A stretch of 41,656 bases of DNA from Candidatus Uhrbacteria bacterium (lineage in GTDB: Bacteria; Patescibacteriota; Patescibacteriia; JACQRZ01): the NCBI GenBank assembly GCA_016186045.1, contig JACPMJ010000001.1:37232-78887 (forward strand). Reading direction: 5' to 3'. Shown piece after piece: positions 3,265 through 13,912 of the stretch. The translations under genes and the position numbers were made by a program. The notes under the pieces were generated by a model. The model had not been told where the DNA came from and made no database searches. It worked only from the letters and a program-made list of their open reading frames with translations. The stretch's first letter is position 1. Each line of letters starts with the position of its first letter.

Positions 3265-3651
3265 ATGTCTCAAAAAACACCCAAACAGATACTTGGAGCG
3301 CGCGGAGAACGGCTTGCGGCAGAATATTTACAAAACAAAGGATACACTATCCTTGAAAAAAATTTTAGCGTCCATAAGATCGGAGAAATAGATCTCATCG
3401 CTCAAAAAGGCGATGAGATTGTTTTTATAGAGGTGAAAACGCGCACCGGCAATCAATATGGTTATCCGGAAGAGGCGGTGGATTATTGGAAGGCAAAAAA
3501 GATCTCTCGCGCGGCGCGGCACTTTCTTTATCTGCGACAGCTTGACAATACGTATGTAAGATTTGACATCATTTCCGTGCATATTGATGAGAAAAATAAC
3601 GTCCATACAATACGGCACAATGAAAACATTCCGCTTGCTCTCAACTATTGA
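3265..3651 (+). CDS. yraN: YraN/UPF0102 family endonuclease-like protein
   Basis: A 128-residue protein with the YraN pattern: an N-terminal helix GARGERLAAEYLQNKGY, then GEIDLIA (residues 40-46) and FIEVKTR (54-60). Together these give the E...D...ExK arrangement of the restriction-endonuclease-like fold. The family has been suggested to act in Holliday-junction or DNA processing, but its role remains poorly defined. In many bacteria it sits near rnhB and lepB; neither is here. Length is normal for the family (about 115-130). ATG 3265 follows a T-rich stretch without an SD. The stop is TGA. Confidence 0.92.
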   Translation: MSQKTPKQILGARGERLAAEYLQNKGYTILEKNFSVHKIGEIDLIAQKGDEIVFIEVKTRTGNQYGYPEEAVDYWKAKKISRAARHFLYLRQLDNTYVRFDIISVHIDEKNNVHTIRHNENIPLALNY

Positions 3652-3720: not shown

Positions 3721-3804
3721 GATGTGGAGAAGTCCGCATCAAGAATTTTTTGACTATGCTTTCTGCGCGTGTTTAACAAGGGTCGAACCAAATACGCACA
3801 GAAA
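3721..3804 (+). promoter_or_regulatory. Structured 5' leader with two hairpins
   Basis: The first hairpin lies right at the predicted mRNA start: GATGTGGA (3721-3728), loop GAAG, TCCGCATC (3733-3740), 8 bp with one G-U pair. It is followed by AAGAATTTTTT. The second is TTTCTGCGCGT (3760-3770) with ACGCACAGAAA (3794-3804), 10 bp with one mismatch and a 23-base loop. They could stabilise the message or act as a control leader for the abundant surface protein that follows. No known riboswitch was recognised. Confidence 0.4.
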
Positions 3805-3848: not shown

Positions 3849-5138
3849 ATGAAACATACACTTTACAGGATCGTAACAAAGGTTACGATTTTCGCCACAG
3901 TATTTCTCACGGTGCTCGGTGCCATCACGCCAAGCGCGTATGCGGCTGCGACAGCTTTTGATAGTGTCCTTATGCAACTAAGCAGAGTACAGGCATCAAC
4001 CATAACAAGTAGTACATTTACTATAAACCTTCCTGATAGCGGTACTGGTTGGGATGCGACAACCGCGTCTGATACTATATCCATAACTTTTGCCACGGGT
4101 ACGAATAATTGGACGATAGGTGCTAATTGGACGGGTACTGATTTTACTATACTTGATGGGAGCACCTCTGTAACAGTAAGCGCGGGAAATGTTGCCACAT
4201 CTGCAACGGCAGGAACTCAACCGACATATAACGCTTGCCTAACAGCAGGTAATGATTATGCCACTGTTTTTGTTAACTCTGCGGACCGCAAGTTTTGGTT
4301 TCGACGCTGTGGAGGAGGTGGAGGAACGGCTCCTAATACAAATGGTGGAAATATTATTATCACGATCGAAAGCGGAGGCACTGGCAGTATTACAACTCCT
4401 GCAGCTGGGAATAATTATCTTGTAACACTTGACATGGCGGATGAAGATACGCTATACGACATAACTAGACAAGTTGCGACCTCTATCATCGCATCAGATG
4501 CTGCCGGTCCCTCGGGCGTGCAAGCAACGGCGCCAACGCTTACGTTTGTAGTAGCGCAAGATACTACGGGTACCGGTGGTGCTACGTGCAGTGGATTTTC
4601 TGCTATAACTGCGACAACTACATTTGGGTTTAATACCTTAGTTTCGACTCAAGTGAATAATGCTACCAGTACTATTTGTACGACGGTCTCTTCTACTAAT
4701 TCATCTCTTACTGTGCGAGTGTACATCTCGTCACAATATGGAGGACTCAATAGAAGCTCGGGGAGTAATTTTATCAATAACGCCGGTACCGGTGGATCAG
4801 CGTACTCTTCTGCAACGCAAAAAACACTTACAGTAGGGACAAATACTGATGATGGTATATGCGTGATGGATTCGGGAGATACTGGAGCCTCAGATACAGG
4901 GACTATTACATCTATATCCCCATATAACGGAACATGCAACTATACGAGTATGACTGGAACTGAAACACTTGGGACAATTCCAACACTTGCTACAGGAGGT
5001 CTTCAGCCAGTTTGGACCGCTACCGTAAGTAGTAATTCAGCGGCAACACATCTTCTTCCGCGTGTCGCAATAAGCGCGGCAACTACGGCAGGCACCTATA
5101 CTGATACCTATTACATTACGGCAGCAGCTACTTTCTAA
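3849..5138 (+). CDS. Exported beta-rich surface protein (signal peptide, no anchor)
   Basis: A 429-residue protein with a Sec signal peptide (residues 1 to about 32, ending PSAYA). The mature part is almost free of Lys and Arg and very rich in Thr, Ser, Gly and Ala, typical of beta-sandwich surface layer or fibre proteins. A few Cys (for example near YNACL, RRCGGG, GATCSG, TICTT, GICVMD, GTCNYT) could form disulfides. It ends in GTYTDTYYITAAATF, a terminal beta strand like the last strand of WxL or spore-coat-U/pilin-type domains. No C-terminal membrane anchor is present. It is the first gene of the surface locus and a paralogue of the frameshifted gene at 6284-7382. The product could be an S-layer or fibre subunit; this is inference. 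Confidence 0.8.
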   Translation: MKHTLYRIVTKVTIFATVFLTVLGAITPSAYAAATAFDSVLMQLSRVQASTITSSTFTINLPDSGTGWDATTASDTISITFATGTNNWTIGANWTGTDFTILDGSTSVTVSAGNVATSATAGTQPTYNACLTAGNDYATVFVNSADRKFWFRRCGGGGGTAPNTNGGNIIITIESGGTGSITTPAAGNNYLVTLDMADEDTLYDITRQVATSIIASDAAGPSGVQATAPTLTFVVAQDTTGTGGATCSGFSAITATTTFGFNTLVSTQVNNATSTICTTVSSTNSSLTVRVYISSQYGGLNRSSGSNFINNAGTGGSAYSSATQKTLTVGTNTDDGICVMDSGDTGASDTGTITSISPYNGTCNYTSMTGTETLGTIPTLATGGLQPVWTATVSSNSAATHLLPRVAISAATTAGTYTDTYYITAAATF

Positions 5139-5175
5139 ATATATTAAATAATTCGCATAACCCCATGCTGTGTAT

Positions 5176-6093
5176 ATGAAAAAATATATATATCTCGGAT
5201 TCATTGTGATTGCCGGGTTACTTCTGTGGACTCATGATACTCATGCGCTCACCATACAACCGGTAACACTTGATGAGCTCACATTAAGTCCAGGAGAGTC
5301 AATAACAAAAAATATTAAATTAACGAATGATGGCTCTTCTCCTGTAACCGTCCAGCCAACATTCTATCAGGCTGAGGCAGCACTTTCAGAGGACGGATCC
5401 GCAAGTTATACAAAAGCGACATCAGAATCCACGCTTGCAAACTGGATTGTATTAAAAGATGGCGGGCAAGTGACATTACAGTCAAAGGAATCAAAGCTTG
5501 TTCCGCTATTCATTAGTATTCCACAAGATGCTCCTCCAGGTGGTCATTTTGCAATGATCGGGTGGGGAATACCGTCTTCTGTTGGAGACACTGGAGTTGG
5601 CATTTCAGGGCTTACCGGCGTGAATGTAGCTCTTGATGTGCGAGGGCAGACAGTAGAAAAAGGTGAGGTCACCTACTTTGGTACTGAAAACGGTGTCACA
5701 AAGTTTGATAAGCTTCCGATTACCTTTTTAGCTCGGTTTAATAATGGAGGGAATCGTCACTTCAAGCCGCAGGGTGATGTGAAGATTAAAAACATGTTTG
5801 GCAGTATCGTGACCGTGCTTCCATTTAACAATCTTCCGGGGACGGGAAATGTCTTACCGCGAAGTAATCGAGAGTATAAAGTCGTATGGGATTCAGGATT
5901 TGCCTTTGGCAAGTATACCGCGCTCTTTGATGTATCCATGGGCGGAGCGGGAAGCGCATCCAAAACATTTACCTTCTGGGTGCTCCCAACCGGACTTCTC
6001 GTTCTTTGGCTTATTATCGCGCTCGTTATTGTAGTAATTCTTGTTCTTCTTATCAAGAAGATGCTTGAGTCGGCGGGAACGATAAAGAAGTAA
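5176..6093 (+). CDS. DUF916-like membrane-anchored surface protein
   Basis: A 305-residue protein with a signal peptide (about 1-24, ending DTHA) and a single strong C-terminal membrane segment (about 272-297, LLVLWLIIALVIVVILVLLI) followed by KKMLE. The ectodomain has the immunoglobulin-like logic of DUF916/WxL-interacting proteins: LSPGESITKNIKLTNDG, then ANWIVLKDGGQVTL, then VPLFISIPQDAPPGGHFAMIGW. In Firmicutes such proteins sit beside WxL wall proteins and bind them. Here it lies between two genes for related beta-rich exported proteins. ATG 5176 is preferred to GTG 5170. It is followed by a clear terminator. The family assignment is by pattern only. Confidence 0.75.
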   Translation: MKKYIYLGFIVIAGLLLWTHDTHALTIQPVTLDELTLSPGESITKNIKLTNDGSSPVTVQPTFYQAEAALSEDGSASYTKATSESTLANWIVLKDGGQVTLQSKESKLVPLFISIPQDAPPGGHFAMIGWGIPSSVGDTGVGISGLTGVNVALDVRGQTVEKGEVTYFGTENGVTKFDKLPITFLARFNNGGNRHFKPQGDVKIKNMFGSIVTVLPFNNLPGTGNVLPRSNREYKVVWDSGFAFGKYTALFDVSMGGAGSASKTFTFWVLPTGLLVLWLIIALVIVVILVLLIKKMLESAGTIKK

Positions 6094-6121
6094 TTTCCTG
6101 ATAAAAAAGTCTGATATACAA

Positions 6122-6152
6122 AAAACTCTCGGGTTCTTTCTCGAGAGTTTTT
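6122..6152 (+). terminator. Rho-independent terminator after the DUF916-like gene
   Basis: AAAACTCTCG (6122-6131), a 10-base loop, CGAGAGTTTT (6142-6151). The U-run forms the end of the stem. It ends the first part of the surface locus 28 bases after the stop codon. Confidence 0.8.
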
Positions 6153-6246
6153 ATGATATACTGAAAAGAGAAAATAACTCTCAAATATATAATTGCAAGG
6201 AAATAGAATGATCGTGGCAATTCTATAAATTGATCATGGCTCCACT

Positions 6247-6275
6247 GGGATCCCCACGCTTCGCTCGGGATGACA
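6247..6275. repeat. Half copy of the TGTCATCCCGAGC palindromic repeat
   Basis: GGGATCCCCACGCTTCGCTC followed by GGGATGACA is the reverse complement of a TGTCATCCCGAGCGAAGCG arm. Only one arm is visible. It sits just before the start of the frameshifted exported-protein gene, and the downstream reading frame stays open back through it (to 6230), though the likely start is ATG 6284. Confidence 0.65.
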
Positions 6276-6283
6276 GAACTATT

Positions 6284-7382
6284 ATGCAAAAACTCTTGCT
6301 TATTATATCAAAAACTCTTATTGGGTTTACGATATTTTTGTCGGTGTTTTTTCCTCATGCTCAATATGTATACGCCGGAGAGATAACCAACGCAAACGAT
6401 ACGCTGACCCGCCAAAAACAAAATACCGCGTCTCAACATACCATAGATTTTCGCCTTGCAAGTGGCTTTGACTTTGACGCGAGTGGAGGCAAGGATGTGC
6501 TCGCCATCCAATTTCCCACGACCTTTTCTTCCAGCGGCACATGGATCACCGGAGATCTTACCTTTTGGCAAGATCAGACCGGAAGTTCCGCCTCCACACT
6601 CACGCAAGTGACTATTGCGCAAGTAGTCTCCGGTGCAGGCACCTCCACAGGTTCCCTTACCTGTGATACAAATAATCAAGTAGGTATCGCCATTGATACG
6701 ACAAGCCTTATCTTTCGCGTCCAACCTTGTACCACCACCTATACGGCCTCTGATACCGGCGGCACAAACATTGGCGCCATGCGCCTCATCATCCTGAATG
6801 ATAGTGCAAACGGAGAATTCACAAATCCCGCGTCTGCGGACGTCACCGACATTTACCTTTGCGCTTACCACATCTACAACCCTCGCCACATGCCCAAGTA
6901 CCAGTCAATCCTCCGAGGGAACGATCAATTTTCCGAATCCTCTTTCATCGGGGGTTATTAATATAGCACAAACATATATCTGTACATACACCTTCACAAA
7001 TTCAGGAAACTCAACAAAGGCGACTATCTATGCCGCATCTGCAAACGCAAGCCTTACCGTATCCTCCTATCGCATACCGGATACCGCGTACACCTCAAAC
7101 TCTTCGCTCACGCTCTCCGCAGGCACTGAAAATTATGGCATCTGCATGGTAAGCAGTGGAGGAAGCTCAAATGCCACTGCGATATCGCCGTTTAATGGCA
7201 CCTGTACGACGTCAAGTTCTGACACAAGCGCGGGAGCCCTCACAACATCCATAGCCCCTCTCTGGAATACCACCGCAAATACCGCGTATGCGAATATTCT
7301 CACAAAACTTGCGATATCCTCAAATACCGAGGCGGGCACCTATACCGATACTATTTATGTTGTTGCCGCAGGAACGTTTTGA
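6284..7382 (+). pseudogene. Frameshifted paralogue of the 3849-5138 exported beta-rich protein
   Basis: Two overlapping frames together encode one exported protein. Frame A runs from ATG 6284 (signal peptide MQKLLLIISKTLIGFTIFLS, ending about YVYA) and loses sense after about 6845, then stops at 6961. Frame B is open to 7382, and from about 6845 it gives SPTFTFALTT and onward. Frame B matches the 3849-5138 product: its APTLTF corresponds to SPTFTF here, GICMVSSG to GICVMDSG, ISPFNGTC to ISPYNGTC, and both end AGTYTDT.YV/I..AA.TF. Comparison suggests a net loss of about 5 bases (or a gain of one) near 6841-6846. There is no homopolymer there, so a routine slippage site is unlikely. It may be a true pseudogene or an assembly error. 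The mature N terminus shares DTLTRQKQNTASQHTIDF with the next protein. Confidence 0.8.
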
Positions 7383-7397
7383 TGAGTTAAAATAATT

Positions 7398-9338
7398 ATG
7401 AAAAAACACATCATTCTTATTACTTTGATCGTTTTTGGACTTTGTGGATACGCGCAGAGTGTTTTTGCCTTGCCACTTACGCAAGTGTCAGATACCATGA
7501 CCCGGCTTCGTACAGATACGCCGGCTGATCACGAAATTCAATTTACTGTCATCAACGGCGTTGGACTTCCAGGAAAAGGAGATACTATACTCATTAATTT
7601 TGGTGACGCGGTATCAAGCACAAATAGTATATCCTACGAAGACATAAGTCTTCGATATGGTACCTTGGGACAAGAACTCTCACAGGCATTGTATACGATA
7701 TCGGGTCCAAACGTATGGGGAGCAAGCGTCAATACTCAAAGAAAACTTCTCACACTCACCTTCCCCACATCAAACGGTACGCCTATTACCACCAGCCAGC
7801 GAGTGATTATAAAAATCGGAACAAATGTACGAAGTAACGCGAATCAGCTTATCAACGGCTCAATGTCAGGAAGTCATGTCATAGAAATTCTTGCGGGAAA
7901 TTACGACTCAAAACAAGTCGCCATCGTGCTCCTTCAAAATGACGCGGTCGGCGCCGGCGGTCCGGTGGCAGAACAGCCACCTCCGCAAAGTAATATGGTG
8001 ATCCTTCCGTTGTCCGCCCCTGCTGTGGCAACACCACAAGCTCCTGCTCCCGTAGAAGTACAACCCAGCCAGCCGGCACAAGCGCCTGCTATTAAACAGC
8101 CTACTCCTATTGCCAAAGCTCCCGCGCCGGCTCCCGCAGAAGTACAGCCCAGCCAGCCGGCACAAGCGCCTGTAGAACAGCCTGTTGCGGCAGAAGCCCC
8201 TGCTGTGACCACACCACAAGCTCCCGCACCGGCTCCCGCAGAAATACAGCCCAGTCAGCCAACACAAGCGCCTGCGCTCGCGCCAACACCTACAATTGTT
8301 GTCGTTTCTCTTGGCGCGCCTGCAAACGTTCGAATTCAAGCAGATAAGGTGTCTTCCGCAAGTGTTGTAAACACTGACGCAAGCGGTCAAATAACCGGAA
8401 TTTTTGCCGAGATTGAGGAGAATACCGTAGCAGAAGATGGTAGAGTATCTATTGAGTCGATTTCCTTAACGCAAGTGTCAAATGTGGATAGTGAAATTCG
8501 CATTCCATCGGGGAAAGACGTTCCTGATAAGGTGTTTTATAAAATCAACATCAGTACAAAAGTGGAAAAACCAATCCGCATTACCATCAAATATAATCCT
8601 GATTTTCTTGCAGGCCTTGATCCGTCAAGCCTAAAAATTAATTACTGGGATGGCGAACAGGGCAAGTGGATCCCGCTTGAAGACACTGTCATTGATAAGG
8701 AACAGCACACATTGAGCGCGCATGTCATTCCGCAAACAATTTTTGCCGCGTTTGCCACTATCACTTCACGAGAAGCTCTTCGGCAGAGAGAGCAGGTTAT
8801 CTTAAAATCTTCTGTCAAATTTATTCCGAGAAGCTCTGGCATTTCGCAAACTGATCTTGCATTTACGGGAAAGACAGACTCAGAACCTGTCCGGTTTGTG
8901 AACTATGATTTTTACACATCTGGCGCGCAGGAAATGAAACTTTGCATAAAGGAAAAGCTTTTTTTGCGGTCGGTTGCGTCCGTGCTTCTCGAATTCATGA
9001 ATAAACAGCAAAAATTGTTTTACAACAAAACATTCAAGTGCTTTGGCGGATTTATCACATCTCCCATAGAAGAGGGCACCTACCCCATGAAATTAAAAGT
9101 TATTTATAAAGACGATTATTCAGAAAGCATTTCGCCAAATTTGGTAGTCACTACGCCACTTCAGGCGTTCGTAAAACCAATCATGCGATGGATCATTGAA
9201 GACGTGCAGTCATCACCCCTTGCAACAGCAGGAGTATACGGGTCGCTTACGCTTTTGGCGCTTGGCATATGGTTTGGCATTGCCCGTCGTGTGCGAAAGT
9301 TTCGATCTATGCCCCTGCTTTCTCTGTCAAAAAAATAG
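7398..9338 (+). CDS. Membrane-anchored multidomain surface protein with Pro/Ala linker
   Basis: A 646-residue protein. The signal peptide is residues 1 to about 24 (ending SVFA). An N-terminal beta module (about 25-185) contains DTMTRLRTDTPADHEIQF and ISYEDISLRYGT. Next comes a Pro/Ala-rich linker (about 192-305) with three near-identical units around APAEVQPSQPAQAP. Two more beta modules follow: one with LKINYWDGEQGKWIPLED, one with FYTSGAQEMKLCIKEKLFLR and CFGGFITSPIEEGTY. A C-terminal membrane helix (about 612-632, VYGSLTLLALGIWFGIA) precedes a basic tail RRVRKFR. The Pro linker probably spans the cell envelope. It is a clear paralogue of the next protein in both its N- and C-terminal modules. 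It lies 15 bases after the frameshifted gene. Function is unknown; an adhesion or envelope scaffold role is inferred. Confidence 0.8.
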   Translation: MKKHIILITLIVFGLCGYAQSVFALPLTQVSDTMTRLRTDTPADHEIQFTVINGVGLPGKGDTILINFGDAVSSTNSISYEDISLRYGTLGQELSQALYTISGPNVWGASVNTQRKLLTLTFPTSNGTPITTSQRVIIKIGTNVRSNANQLINGSMSGSHVIEILAGNYDSKQVAIVLLQNDAVGAGGPVAEQPPPQSNMVILPLSAPAVATPQAPAPVEVQPSQPAQAPAIKQPTPIAKAPAPAPAEVQPSQPAQAPVEQPVAAEAPAVTTPQAPAPAPAEIQPSQPTQAPALAPTPTIVVVSLGAPANVRIQADKVSSASVVNTDASGQITGIFAEIEENTVAEDGRVSIESISLTQVSNVDSEIRIPSGKDVPDKVFYKINISTKVEKPIRITIKYNPDFLAGLDPSSLKINYWDGEQGKWIPLEDTVIDKEQHTLSAHVIPQTIFAAFATITSREALRQREQVILKSSVKFIPRSSGISQTDLAFTGKTDSEPVRFVNYDFYTSGAQEMKLCIKEKLFLRSVASVLLEFMNKQQKLFYNKTFKCFGGFITSPIEEGTYPMKLKVIYKDDYSESISPNLVVTTPLQAFVKPIMRWIIEDVQSSPLATAGVYGSLTLLALGIWFGIARRVRKFRSMPLLSLSKK

Positions 9339-9378
9339 TGGTAGTATACTACTGGGAGTCAGGTACTGTGAACTTATT

Positions 9379-12300
9379 ATGATTATGCGCATTCGTCCGC
9401 AGTATTTCTTCATTCTTGCGACACTTTTTTCCCTTGCCATCCTTGGCATGTCTGTTTTTGCTGCCAATGTATACAATATCCAATATCGTGTTCAGCCGCA
9501 AACCATAGGAGAAGCTGCCAATCATACCATCTATTTTCAATCCCGTACCGCGATTTCATCCGGCACTATCGTTTTGAATTTACAAAATCTTGTCTCAAGT
9601 GTCGGAAGCGTCGCGTTCACGGATGTGGATCTTTCATATGGAACATCAGCGACCTCCGCGCAAACTCAGCTTACGCTGGCTGCGGGAAATGGAAATGCCA
9701 TTTGGGGAGTGGCGATAGATGCTGCAAATAAAAGAATTACATTTTCATATCCGTCCAGCGGCAGTGGGACTATCCCCGCAGATCAGGTCATCACCATAAA
9801 AATCGGCACGCACGCTACTGAAGGCGCTAATGGCGCAAATCGCATGACCAATGCCGCGGCGGTGTCATCAGGTGGAAAAATCGTCTCCATTGTCGCAGGG
9901 AGCGAAGTTGGCACCATAAGTGTTCCGCTTGTCACGTCGGCAACAGTTTCGTCTGGTGCAACAGCGCCGGTGCAAAACACTGCTCCGGCAATAGCGCTGA
10001 CCGGAACTATATCCACAGCGGCAACGCAAACCGTGGCAAGCTATGTGACGATTTCATACACCGCTACAGATGCGGAGAATAATACGGCAAGCCTTGCTTC
10101 ATACCAATATTCTCTTGACAACACCACATGGCAAACCATGACGCAAAAATCAGGGGCGGGCAGTAGTGGTACAAGTAATCTCGCATTTACGGCCGCAGGT
10201 GCGGCACTGATATTTGTCTGGGACAGCGCTACGAATATTCCTAATACGCAAGACAGTACTGTGTATGTGCGGCTGAAGGCAAATGATGGGACTGTTGACG
10301 GTAGTTTTGCAACAAGCGCCGCATTTGGCGTTGATACAAATCCGCCGGCATCAGCAGTAGTGGTCGTGGCTCCTGCGCCTGCTCCCGCTCCTGCGCCTGC
10401 TCCCACTCCCACTCCCGCTCCTGCGCCTGTGCCTTCAGCGCCCGCATCAACCCAGACAACGCAGCCAACTCAGACATCAGAGCCAGCGCCTTCCTTGCGA
10501 ACGAAAGAAGAGCCAAAGCAAGCTGAAATAAAAACAGAAGAAAAATCGCCGGAGCCAAAAAAAGAAGAGCAACCTGTGCAAAAAGATACCACGCCGCCGG
10601 TTTCATCCATCGATATTCGAGGAACTGCCGGCCAAAACAATTGGTATGCCAGCAGTGTTATACTGTCGCTTCTTGCCAGTGATGACAGTGGAGTTGCTCC
10701 TGCGCTATATTATCGTATTGGCGCATCCGGAGAATTTGTAGCCTACAAAATTCCTCTTGCCATTTCAGCCGAAGGAGAAAAGACGATTCAATACTATGCG
10801 AGCGATGCCGCAGGGAACAAGGAGGCGCAAAAATCATTCCTGCTCCGCATAGATACCATTGCGCCCACAGGCTCTGCAGTGTTGAATAATGGAAACACTG
10901 CAAGCAACACAAGAACTATTCCCATTTCACTTCAATGCGCTGATGCCGGATCATCGTGTTCTGCGGTGGAATTATCACAAAATAATACCTCTTGGACGTC
11001 ATGGCAAACACTGCGCGATATCGCGCCCATACAATACTCATCTGATGGTAAAAAAACACTTTTTGTGAAATTTAAAGATGCGGCAGGAAATGAAAGTCAG
11101 ATTATCAGCCCCCAGGAAATTCTTATTGACACCACAAAGCCTACGGTCCTTGCGGATGTCACGTCAAGGCAAAATCCCGGAGAAGAAAAAACAATCAAAG
11201 CAGTGGCATCTGACGCACTTTCTCAAATCTCGTCATTTCAGTGGGAGATCATTCAGCAACCGGAAGGTGGAGATCTCGTAATTGACAATTCCGCCATACA
11301 ACAGATTCAAGTGAGCGCGACAGTTCCGGGCACGTATATACTCCGCGTCACTGTTACTGATGCCGTTGGGAATAAGACGGTATCGGATGAGACGAAAATT
11401 ATTATTCTTGATCAAAATAGGAAGATTACCGCGCAGGAATTCAAACAAAGGAACTTTGATATCAAAGACGCTCCCAAGACAGTGAGGGAGGTCATGAGCC
11501 CGGATGCGAAAAATTTTGCGAGCAGTGAAACAGCATCAATAGAGCTTGAGGCCGGAACATTTAATTTGAGTGCGATGCAGTCTCTGCGGGCGAAGCCTGT
11601 TTCCGCAAGCGAGGGAGCTCAACAAGCAGGTGGAGGAGTTACTCAACAGACAGGCACAGGAGGCGAAGTAAGTACGCCAAGTGCACAAAATATAAGTGGA
11701 GGCGGAGGGTATAGTGTCCAAGCAACAAACGAGCAAGGCCGCATCACAATAGAGCTTTCAAAACTTCCTTGCAATATCGCAAGTGAAACCGCCGGGACAG
11801 ATATTTTGGCAGTATCGCCGCCCAAGACAAAGCTTATGGGATGCGCAGTTGATCGCGTTACGGCAAGTCTTAAACTTGACGGAAGCGTCAGACAACCATC
11901 TGCGCTTATTCCGTCCAATGAACAGTCTATCCACAGTATTCCACGGCAAGAGTCACTTTCTTTGGGCGCGCGCATCATGCGATTTTTCGCGCATATGGAC
12001 AGTATGCCGGCATTTGCACAAACAGAACCCCAGCCAGAGCAATCTTCTCAGACACTTCGGTTTTATCCGGTGTATCAAAAGGTCATTCCACTCACGGAAT
12101 TCGAAAAAAAGCCGACTCTTACATTTTACTATAGTCAAAAAGAAGCGAGTTCGATCTATGTGGACACTATCCGTCTCTACGCATGGGACGCGGAAACAAA
12201 TAGATGGGTTCCTGAAGAAGAGGTTGCTCATAAAAAAGAGGAAAACGCCGTTGTCGCAAAAGTGGACCATCTTTCGCTTTTTGGTTTGTTTGCAGAACCG

Positions 12301-13851
12301 ATTCCGCTTCCCCGCCGTCTCAGAGAAGAAGTGGTGTATACTGCCGCGCCAGGACAATTTGAACAGCCAAAGATACTTTTGGAAAACCAGGATCTTGGAC
12401 TGGTGCAGGCAGACACTGGGAAACTCCTGTCATTCGCAGACAGTGAATTTTACGTTTCTGGAGATGTGCGTATTGACATATGTGTCCCCGCAAAACTTTT
12501 TCAGCAGAAAGCAATCAAAAAAATGGCGCTTTCAAGCGCCGGGGAGCGCACCACGCTTTTCTATGACAAGTCAAAAGCATGTTATGCCGGACATTTTCAG
12601 ACACCACAGAAAAAGGGAACATATGATGTTGTTTTAAAAATCATTTACGGAGACGATGTGGTTCAAACCGTACCTCTTGCCATGAGTGTCACATCCGTTG
12701 CTCAAGCGCAAGTACTCGCAGTGGTCGCTCCTTCGATCAAGGAGGTGCAAAAGGCTGCCGCTATCGTGAATACAGAGACGAAAAAGGCGGTGGAAGTGTC
12801 AGAGCCGGCTCTACAAGCATCGGTTGCCGTGTCTGTGCCTGCGATTGCCGTGGCAAATCCTGCGATTGCCGTAAATACCGTCCAGTGGTACTACTATATC
12901 AACTATCTTTTTTCATGGATTCTGTCGTTGGTTGGATTGCGCAAACGTAGAAAGCCATGGGGCGTGGTTTATGACGCGATCACAAAAAATCCCATTGATC
13001 TCGCCATCGTTCGCCTTATTGATGGGAAGACAAAAAAACTCATTGAGACTCAAGTAACCGATAAAAACGGACGATTTAGTTTTGTTCCTATTCCCGGAGA
13101 ATATACTCTCACCGCCACAAAACAGGAATTTGTTTTTCCGTCAAAACTTATTACGGAAACAGTGGATGGAGAATATGCGAATATTTATCACGAGGGAGCC
13201 ATTACCATAAAAAGTGCAGAAGAAACGATCCGGTTGAGCATTCCTCTCGATCAAAAAGCGCCCGCGACATTTCAAAAAAAGACGCTTAGAACCCTTACAA
13301 AGGAATTAATTAGTAGATATGCGCTTGTATCTTTGATAATAAGCATGACCGTTAGCATAGCGCTGACAACGTATGTACCAAGTACCATTAATGCGCTGTT
13401 CCTTCTTATCAATGGCGTATTCGTCATGTCTCAAGTCATGCTTATGGCACATGAGCAAAAGCCATGGGGTATTGTATTTAGTGCACTCAATCTCAAACCA
13501 GTGCCATTGGCTGCCATTGCGATTTTTGACGCAAAACAACAAAAGCTCCTGCGTAGCAGGCTCACAGACTATTATGGCAGATTTAATTTTCTCACTCCGG
13601 CAGGAGAGTTTATTCTCTCTGTTTCAAAGGAACAGTACGCATTTCCCGCGCATAAAGATGCTCATATCAAAAAATATAAGCACCTGTACTTTGGCGGCAC
13701 GATCCAAGTAAAGAAAGGGAATGAGATCGTACGGACCAATATCCCGCTTGAGGAGAAACAAGGGACAGTACAACCGACAACTTCACAGATAGTTCAACCC
13801 CTACCACAGATTTCTTCACCATCCCCCGAGTCTCCACGACCACCCTCTTGA
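9379..13851 (+). CDS. Giant membrane protein: Ig-like ectodomain, paired carboxypeptidase-regulatory-like domains
   Basis: A 1490-residue protein. The signal peptide is 1 to about 28 (ending MSVFA). An N-terminal beta module is shared with the upstream protein (VDLSYGT, WGVAIDAANKRITFSYP, VITIKIGT). A cadherin/Ig-like domain follows, then a Pro/Ala linker and a Glu/Lys-rich stretch. Next are tandem Ig-like repeats with the DTTPPVSS, DTIAPTGS and DTTKPTV boundaries and SDAAGN/KDAAGN loops. A PKD-like domain and C-terminal beta modules (YAWDAETNRWVPEEE, FYVSGDVRIDICVPAKLF) come after. The first TM is about 1171-1188, then RKRRKPWG. Two related carboxypeptidase-regulatory-like domains begin KPWGVVYDA (1192) and KPWGIVFSA (1361), separated by two TM segments (about 1315-1356). 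The upstream frame is open to 9196, but only ATG 9379 (or 9385) precedes a signal peptide. The stop is TGA, followed by a terminator. Confidence 0.82.
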   Translation: MIMRIRPQYFFILATLFSLAILGMSVFAANVYNIQYRVQPQTIGEAANHTIYFQSRTAISSGTIVLNLQNLVSSVGSVAFTDVDLSYGTSATSAQTQLTLAAGNGNAIWGVAIDAANKRITFSYPSSGSGTIPADQVITIKIGTHATEGANGANRMTNAAAVSSGGKIVSIVAGSEVGTISVPLVTSATVSSGATAPVQNTAPAIALTGTISTAATQTVASYVTISYTATDAENNTASLASYQYSLDNTTWQTMTQKSGAGSSGTSNLAFTAAGAALIFVWDSATNIPNTQDSTVYVRLKANDGTVDGSFATSAAFGVDTNPPASAVVVVAPAPAPAPAPAPTPTPAPAPVPSAPASTQTTQPTQTSEPAPSLRTKEEPKQAEIKTEEKSPEPKKEEQPVQKDTTPPVSSIDIRGTAGQNNWYASSVILSLLASDDSGVAPALYYRIGASGEFVAYKIPLAISAEGEKTIQYYASDAAGNKEAQKSFLLRIDTIAPTGSAVLNNGNTASNTRTIPISLQCADAGSSCSAVELSQNNTSWTSWQTLRDIAPIQYSSDGKKTLFVKFKDAAGNESQIISPQEILIDTTKPTVLADVTSRQNPGEEKTIKAVASDALSQISSFQWEIIQQPEGGDLVIDNSAIQQIQVSATVPGTYILRVTVTDAVGNKTVSDETKIIILDQNRKITAQEFKQRNFDIKDAPKTVREVMSPDAKNFASSETASIELEAGTFNLSAMQSLRAKPVSASEGAQQAGGGVTQQTGTGGEVSTPSAQNISGGGGYSVQATNEQGRITIELSKLPCNIASETAGTDILAVSPPKTKLMGCAVDRVTASLKLDGSVRQPSALIPSNEQSIHSIPRQESLSLGARIMRFFAHMDSMPAFAQTEPQPEQSSQTLRFYPVYQKVIPLTEFEKKPTLTFYYSQKEASSIYVDTIRLYAWDAETNRWVPEEEVAHKKEENAVVAKVDHLSLFGLFAEPIPLPRRLREEVVYTAAPGQFEQPKILLENQDLGLVQADTGKLLSFADSEFYVSGDVRIDICVPAKLFQQKAIKKMALSSAGERTTLFYDKSKACYAGHFQTPQKKGTYDVVLKIIYGDDVVQTVPLAMSVTSVAQAQVLAVVAPSIKEVQKAAAIVNTETKKAVEVSEPALQASVAVSVPAIAVANPAIAVNTVQWYYYINYLFSWILSLVGLRKRRKPWGVVYDAITKNPIDLAIVRLIDGKTKKLIETQVTDKNGRFSFVPIPGEYTLTATKQEFVFPSKLITETVDGEYANIYHEGAITIKSAEETIRLSIPLDQKAPATFQKKTLRTLTKELISRYALVSLIISMTVSIALTTYVPSTINALFLLINGVFVMSQVMLMAHEQKPWGIVFSALNLKPVPLAAIAIFDAKQQKLLRSRLTDYYGRFNFLTPAGEFILSVSKEQYAFPAHKDAHIKKYKHLYFGGTIQVKKGNEIVRTNIPLEEKQGTVQPTTSQIVQPLPQISSPSPESPRPPS

Positions 13852-13885: not shown

Positions 13886-13912
13886 GGATAGTTTGCATAA
13901 ACTATCCTTTTT
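13886..13912 (+). terminator. Terminator ending the surface-protein locus
   Basis: GGATAGTTT (13886-13894), loop GCAT, AAACTATCC (13899-13907), then TTTTTA. A perfect 9-bp stem with U-run, 34 bases after the stop of the giant surface gene and 20 bases before nusA. It cleanly separates the two units. Confidence 0.88.

Follow-up and report, generated by a model that had tools for sequence, protein, structure and literature searches.

WxLIP proteins are known in Firmicutes as the partners of WxL proteins (PMC10599100). On the basis of AlphaFold2 prediction, WxLIP was proposed to insert a hairpin strand into WxL, completing its sandwich, and its helix was argued to enter, possibly, the host membrane (PMC10599100). 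A motif, NQIDKxxxYFDLK, is conserved near the start of the WxLIP PGBD (PMC10599100).

The building of the cell surface and the contact with hosts are largely unknown in Patescibacteria. The locus described here lies in a window of 41,656 nucleotides (the whole stretch of DNA analysed) from a Candidatus Uhrbacteria bacterium, and its nearest named relatives are also Candidatus Uhrbacteria (L164, L165). Positions 3849–13851 comprise five exported-type genes on the plus strand, in the order S1, P, S2, L1, L2. Since four of the products share an N-terminal module (N module) and adjoin a relative of WxLIP (P), the locus is probably responsible for a protein assembly at the cell surface. The best explanation, to which we assign a probability of about 0.58, is a WxL-like cluster in which P would hold the proteins with a C-terminal SC domain, L1 and L2 would be membrane-anchored, and the N modules would pack together.

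Locus organization

The features of the locus are collected in Table 1. The first-pass annotation described four exported proteins with a common N-terminal module; these four do carry it, and the fifth gene, P, exported, located mid-locus and devoid of the module, had been overlooked and is the most informative of all. The TM helix of L1 was assigned by eye and lies below the automatic threshold. The SC domain is common to S1 and S2 and is strictly C-terminal, and the Z region, present in 22 proteins of the fetched loci, is common to L1 and L2.

Table 1. Genes, domains and hairpins of the surface locus (window positions)
Feature	Position	Strand	Description
Hairpin upstream of S1	3721..3740	+	terminator-like; z -5.0
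S1	3849..5138	+	secreted, 429 aa; signal peptide, N module, C-terminal SC domain
S1 N module	~3963-4508	+	
S1 SC	~4509-5135	+	
P	5170..6093	+	WxLIP-like; GTG start; signal peptide, two Ig-like domains, C-terminal TM helix, basic tail
Hairpin 3' of P	6121..6152	+	intrinsic-terminator-like; 13-bp stem, U tract; RNA fold -17.5 kcal/mol, z -5.8
S2	6284..7382	+	second small protein, disrupted; domains in different frames
S2 N module	6380-6841	+	
S2 SC	~6843-7382	+	
L1	7398..9338	+	646 aa; signal peptide, N module, Pro/Ala-rich linker, Z region, likely C-terminal TM helix, basic tail
L1 N module	7476-7979	+	
L1 Z region	~8388-9242	+	~residues 331-615
L1 TM helix	~9225-9287	+	
L2	9379..13851	+	1490 aa from ATG at 9379; open frame from 9196; N module, Ig/PKD, OmpL47-type repeat, Z, TM helices, CarbopepD_reg-like
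L2 N module	9466-9981	+	
L2 CarbopepD_reg-like	~12961-13119	+	
Hairpin between L2 and nusA	13886..13907	+	terminator-like; z -4.9

The hairpins upstream of S1, 3' of P and 3' of L2 suggest two transcription units, S1–P and S2–L1–L2, upstream of nusA. Promoter-like matches were at chance level (20 found, 19.7 expected in shuffled sequence) and were left unused. The sequence GGATCCCCACGCTTCGCTCGGGATGACA (6248–6275, just 5' of S2) was considered as a dispersed or genomic repeat and rejected, as it occurs once in the genome.

The product read from 6284 carries the N module, as the first-pass annotation held, though its gene is not intact. The S2 module matches the family profile up to model position 139 of 361, where the frame changes, and ~35 conserved residues are missing between the module and SC. 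A simple one-base frameshift was rejected, because the profile alignment shows this loss besides the frame change. The gene is thus disrupted, in that it lacks an internal stretch and changes frame. A real deletion and an assembly fault are both possible; either at least one subunit is dispensable in this genome or the assembly is wrong. In the relatives L063 and L069 an intact second small-protein gene stands at this place, after P.

The two N-SC genes flanking the WxLIP-like gene of L063 (4100–5293 and 6349–7542) are identical over 1,194 bases, and the identity extends 17 bases upstream, which points to a recent duplication, gene conversion or an assembly effect.

WxLIP-like protein and the SC domain

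Profile comparison relates P to WxLIP, which is anchored in the membrane and partners WxL proteins. P matches Pfam PF06030 (WxLIP_PGBD) with E 2.9e-5, under the gathering cut-off, and 25 of 30 P-family members match this model (E up to 0.1). The P profile matches the solved EfmWxLIP1 in PDB (E 6.4e-7); its alignment to seven Firmicute WxLIP proteins spans 247 columns, which include both Ig domains (hhalign 98.3%, E 1e-14). The TM helix and basic tail are present in the P-family alignment. Thus a WxLIP protein with PGBD and HBD Ig domains and a C-terminal TM helix is found in the locus. The P helix could be placed in the membrane of the cell itself, which we take as a simpler reading than entry into a host membrane.

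WxLIP-like genes occur in other settings as well. One is encoded outside Patescibacteria and Firmicutes, on a plasmid of Deinococcus psychrotolerans (L237:4868–10614), where it adjoins a ~1,060-aa protein and small hypothetical proteins that look secreted. Kaiserbacteria and related Paceibacteria (L168–L226, e.g., L192 and L195) often have two adjacent WxLIP-like genes, some of ~550 aa, and in several of these loci a separate N protein of ~620 aa lies near the pair.

The SC domain stands at the extreme C-terminus in all 116 SC proteins, which is also the position of WxL domains, and the final residue is F or Y in 101 of them. The genome of the window encodes one further SC-domain protein (ORF call, 254 aa, positions 3636–4400 of L238 on contig C18); this contig (6.7 kb) has no P gene.

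The locus could be a WxL cluster in the strict sense, with WxL domains too far diverged to be recognised, a possibility that is compatible with the best explanation, differs from it on the ancestry of SC, and is judged somewhat unlikely. It would account for the same gene order, the homologous WxLIP and the strictly C-terminal SC, and the only stretch of SC that aligns with WxL is the last strand, in register (AGxYsxTLTf in SC, AxxYsTTLTW in WxL). Several observations argue against it. SC as a divergent WxL domain is unsupported by profile-profile comparison (hhalign probability 3.7%, no better than for unrelated pairs), a W-x-L motif, which 14 of 14 Firmicute WxL domains contain, occurs in one of the 116 SC domains, and the NQIDKxxxYFDLK motif is absent from the P-family alignment (A3). 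In these comparisons fetched sequences were used; a separate WxL probe served only to locate annotated WxL genes. PF13731 (WxL domain) had no match above cut-off in 38 genomes, and the two or more WxL-domain proteins (PF13731, two W-x-L motifs) that mark a WxL cluster were not seen in the locus. PDB, searched by sequence, gave no structure of a WxL domain. The locus would work like a WxL cluster; given the presence of WxLIP and the gene order and the lack of a detectable WxL domain and the PGBD motif, it is not filed as one. The missing sequence link between SC and WxL also speaks against the WxL-like cluster of the best explanation.

Gene order in relatives

The genomes sampled are mostly metagenome assemblies, and the gene calls in relatives are longest-ORF picks, uncurated. 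In the class, 240 genomes were searched: 79 have the N module, 95 have a member of the S family (N or SC) and 143 have P. Of 287 genomes sampled across the phylum, 135 have P and 34 have N. A WxLIP-like gene is therefore present in about half of the sampled genomes. P occurs in 75 of the 79 class genomes with an N module (co-presence in class genomes, Fisher p 6e-17), and in 70 of the 79 the module lies at most 7 kb from P, where chance would give an order of 2%.

The order small SC protein, WxLIP-like protein, large module protein recurs across Patescibacteria, and it matches the order small WxL, WxLIP, large protein of Firmicute clusters (from plasmids). By our own count, 23 of 33 loci have an SC gene immediately before P, and 19 of 33 have an N or Z gene as the next gene after it. 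Of 69 additional loci, nearly all from named Patescibacteria, 38 have an SC gene ahead of P. In L066, L070–L072 and L074 P adjoins an N-Z protein where no SC gene is present, and P must therefore serve more than SC; L083, L086, L216, L218 and L219 have SC and P without N. Tandem N-SC genes also occur, with several per locus in L079 and L241 and three of them adjacent in L241.

It had been proposed that the locus builds one multi-protein surface structure. This is supported by the conserved synteny of module, SC and WxLIP-like proteins across the class and phylum, and by the pairing of WxLIP with WxL proteins in Firmicutes.

N-terminal module

The similar segment noticed after the signal peptide of S1, S2, L1 and L2 is a homologous module of ~165–185 residues. 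In BLASTP, computed with signal peptides included, the N-terminal regions of L1 and L2 share 26% identity over 205 aa (E 4e-17), those of S1 and S2 25% over 194 aa (E 6e-5), and S2 matches L1 with E 7e-8. The search alignments (A1–A3) contain window sequences; the leave-out profiles do not, being built from relatives only with window sequences and signal peptides removed, against bias and circularity.

The leave-out small-protein module profile scored 63.4 bits for S1, 82.2 for S2, 64.2 for L1 and 33.7 for L2, with a best score of 7.3 bits among 1,000 shuffled sequences. The large-protein module profile gave 142.5 bits for L1, 146.1 for L2 and 35.3 for S2; S1 was not recovered by this profile alone. 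On these scores the S1 copy is the most diverged of the four and is tied in via the small-protein family, where the leave-out S-family profile scores S1 at 109 bits over its full length and the leave-out SC profile scores its SC domain at 46.0 bits. The small- and large-protein module profiles align with each other (probability 99.6%, E 6e-25). This alignment and the leave-out scores establish that all four products carry the N module; the profile check set by the first-pass annotation thus ended in recovery of 4 of 4 products (34–82 bits).

The motif WG....N.R.LTF.YP, previously pointed out, exists in a loose form and not as an exact one, the actual sequences being WGASVNTQRKLLTLTFP and WGVAIDAANKRITFSYP. 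Sequence searches of Pfam, NCBIfam and PDB gave no convincing match to the N module or to SC, and no curated Pfam or NCBIfam model scored above cut-off for either in the window proteins.

The N module is internal in proteins of the relative G009 (L101:5928–15953, L100:8685–10970; ~residues 1200–1600 or 400–580), where it is followed directly by SC at the C-terminus. Thus, the N-SC pair can move as a unit.

Fold of the module

The AlphaFold2 model of the L1 module (alignment of 22 sequences; pLDDT 92.6, pTM 0.86) is an all-beta sandwich of ~ten strands. In the S1 model (20 sequences, pLDDT 75.6) the N half has the strand order of the L1 module, by strand-order comparison, and the C half is a second all-beta domain. 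Unrelated folds, which would speak against a shared module, were not seen; the strand order is the same in the two modelled modules (L1, S1) of the four. In structure the module comes closest to adhesin and pilin domains (GBS SAK_1440, EbpB, CNA, SdrD and Sgo0707), and weak PDB neighbours common to the L1-module and S1 models are SAK_1440, Sgo0707, TTHA1873, BslA, CNM N2 and CLIPPER. No meaningful Foldseek match was found among viral structures. As modelled, the N module is a beta-sandwich surface domain, and with a best TM-score of 0.51 (E 3e-4, in the comparison with DEv-IgG/CNA domains) the assignment stops there, with no finer class.

The N module could be a shared structural or ligand-binding tip domain (adhesin head) that has been duplicated, the proteins being co-located for co-expression and not co-assembling. 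The adhesin and pilin neighbours (TM-score ≤0.51) agree with this, and duplication is active in the family, as seen from the identical S copies in L063 and the three adjacent genes in L241. However, the module is linked to P more tightly than duplication of a tip adhesin requires, and it is common to soluble P-adjacent and membrane-anchored proteins, which is also beyond the needs of such a duplication. We regard this explanation as rather unlikely and retain the WxL-like cluster.

It is still more improbable that the small N-SC proteins polymerise by strand exchange into a fibre or S-layer, with P as chaperone or base and L1 and L2 as anchors. The donor would be either the first strand of the mature N module (consensus DTLSR), whose conservation is among the highest, or the last strand of SC, likewise conserved; SC is always terminal and usually ends in an aromatic residue, and tandem N-SC genes (L079, L241) would fit. 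But no strand is obviously missing, since the first one is already confidently placed in the isolated module (AlphaFold2, pLDDT ~96), and fimbrial donor-strand proteins are weak, low-TM matches only.

Proposed assembly

In the WxL-like cluster that we prefer, P would sit in the cytoplasmic membrane through its C-terminal helix, displaying its two Ig-like domains. S1, and S2 when intact, would be secreted without a membrane anchor, and from the homology of P to WxLIP and the position of SC we infer that P holds their SC domains at the cell surface. The means would probably be a strand from the first domain of P that completes the sandwich of SC, in the way predicted for WxLIP with WxL. L1 and L2 would be anchored in the membrane by their C-terminal helices with the N module at the distal, N-terminal end, which would place the N modules of the S and L proteins to meet. 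These modules may pack together, or with P, tying the parts into one layer or stalk that may have a role in host attachment. The loci in which P accompanies N-Z without SC, or SC without N, complicate this model, and the broken S2 also counts against it.

That the N module itself mediates subunit assembly, as first suggested, is plausible; by analogy, the WxLIP precedent would point first to SC, and not to the N module, as the anchored part. A more specific and rather doubtful proposal is a dedicated two-tier surface assembly shared by Patescibacteria, in which N modules and SC domains, neither of them named before, would stand on a WxLIP-like base and form the outer protein layer or a host-contact structure.

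Comparison with known systems

No SLH or other curated S-layer anchoring domain (Pfam, NCBIfam) was found, as would be present in an SLH-type S-layer. MSCRAMM and sortase-pilin domains (SAK_1440, EbpB, CNA) resemble the N module distantly in structure (Foldseek E 3e-4 to 2e-3, TM-score ≤0.51), but differ from it in sequence, with no detectable homology. Among the papers listed in a literature search that left most subscription journals uncovered, none linked WxL or DUF916 with Patescibacteria, an absence that is weak evidence; a surface assembly of this kind appears to be undescribed in Patescibacteria.

The WxL/WxLIP (DUF916-DUF3324) cluster of Firmicutes is alike in its homologous WxLIP, with two Ig domains and C-terminal membrane anchoring, in the order small secreted protein, WxLIP, large surface protein, and in small proteins that carry a dedicated domain at their extreme C-terminus. 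The Patescibacteria locus differs in having no detectable WxL domain or W-x-L motif, in the N-terminal module shared by its small and large proteins, and in the TM helices that its large proteins have in place of a C-terminal WxL domain. The link of a WxLIP-like gene to two domain families with no curated-model match above cut-off in the window proteins defines a concrete set of surface proteins for testing, and WxLIP-type anchoring would be extended far past the Firmicutes orders in which it was originally described.
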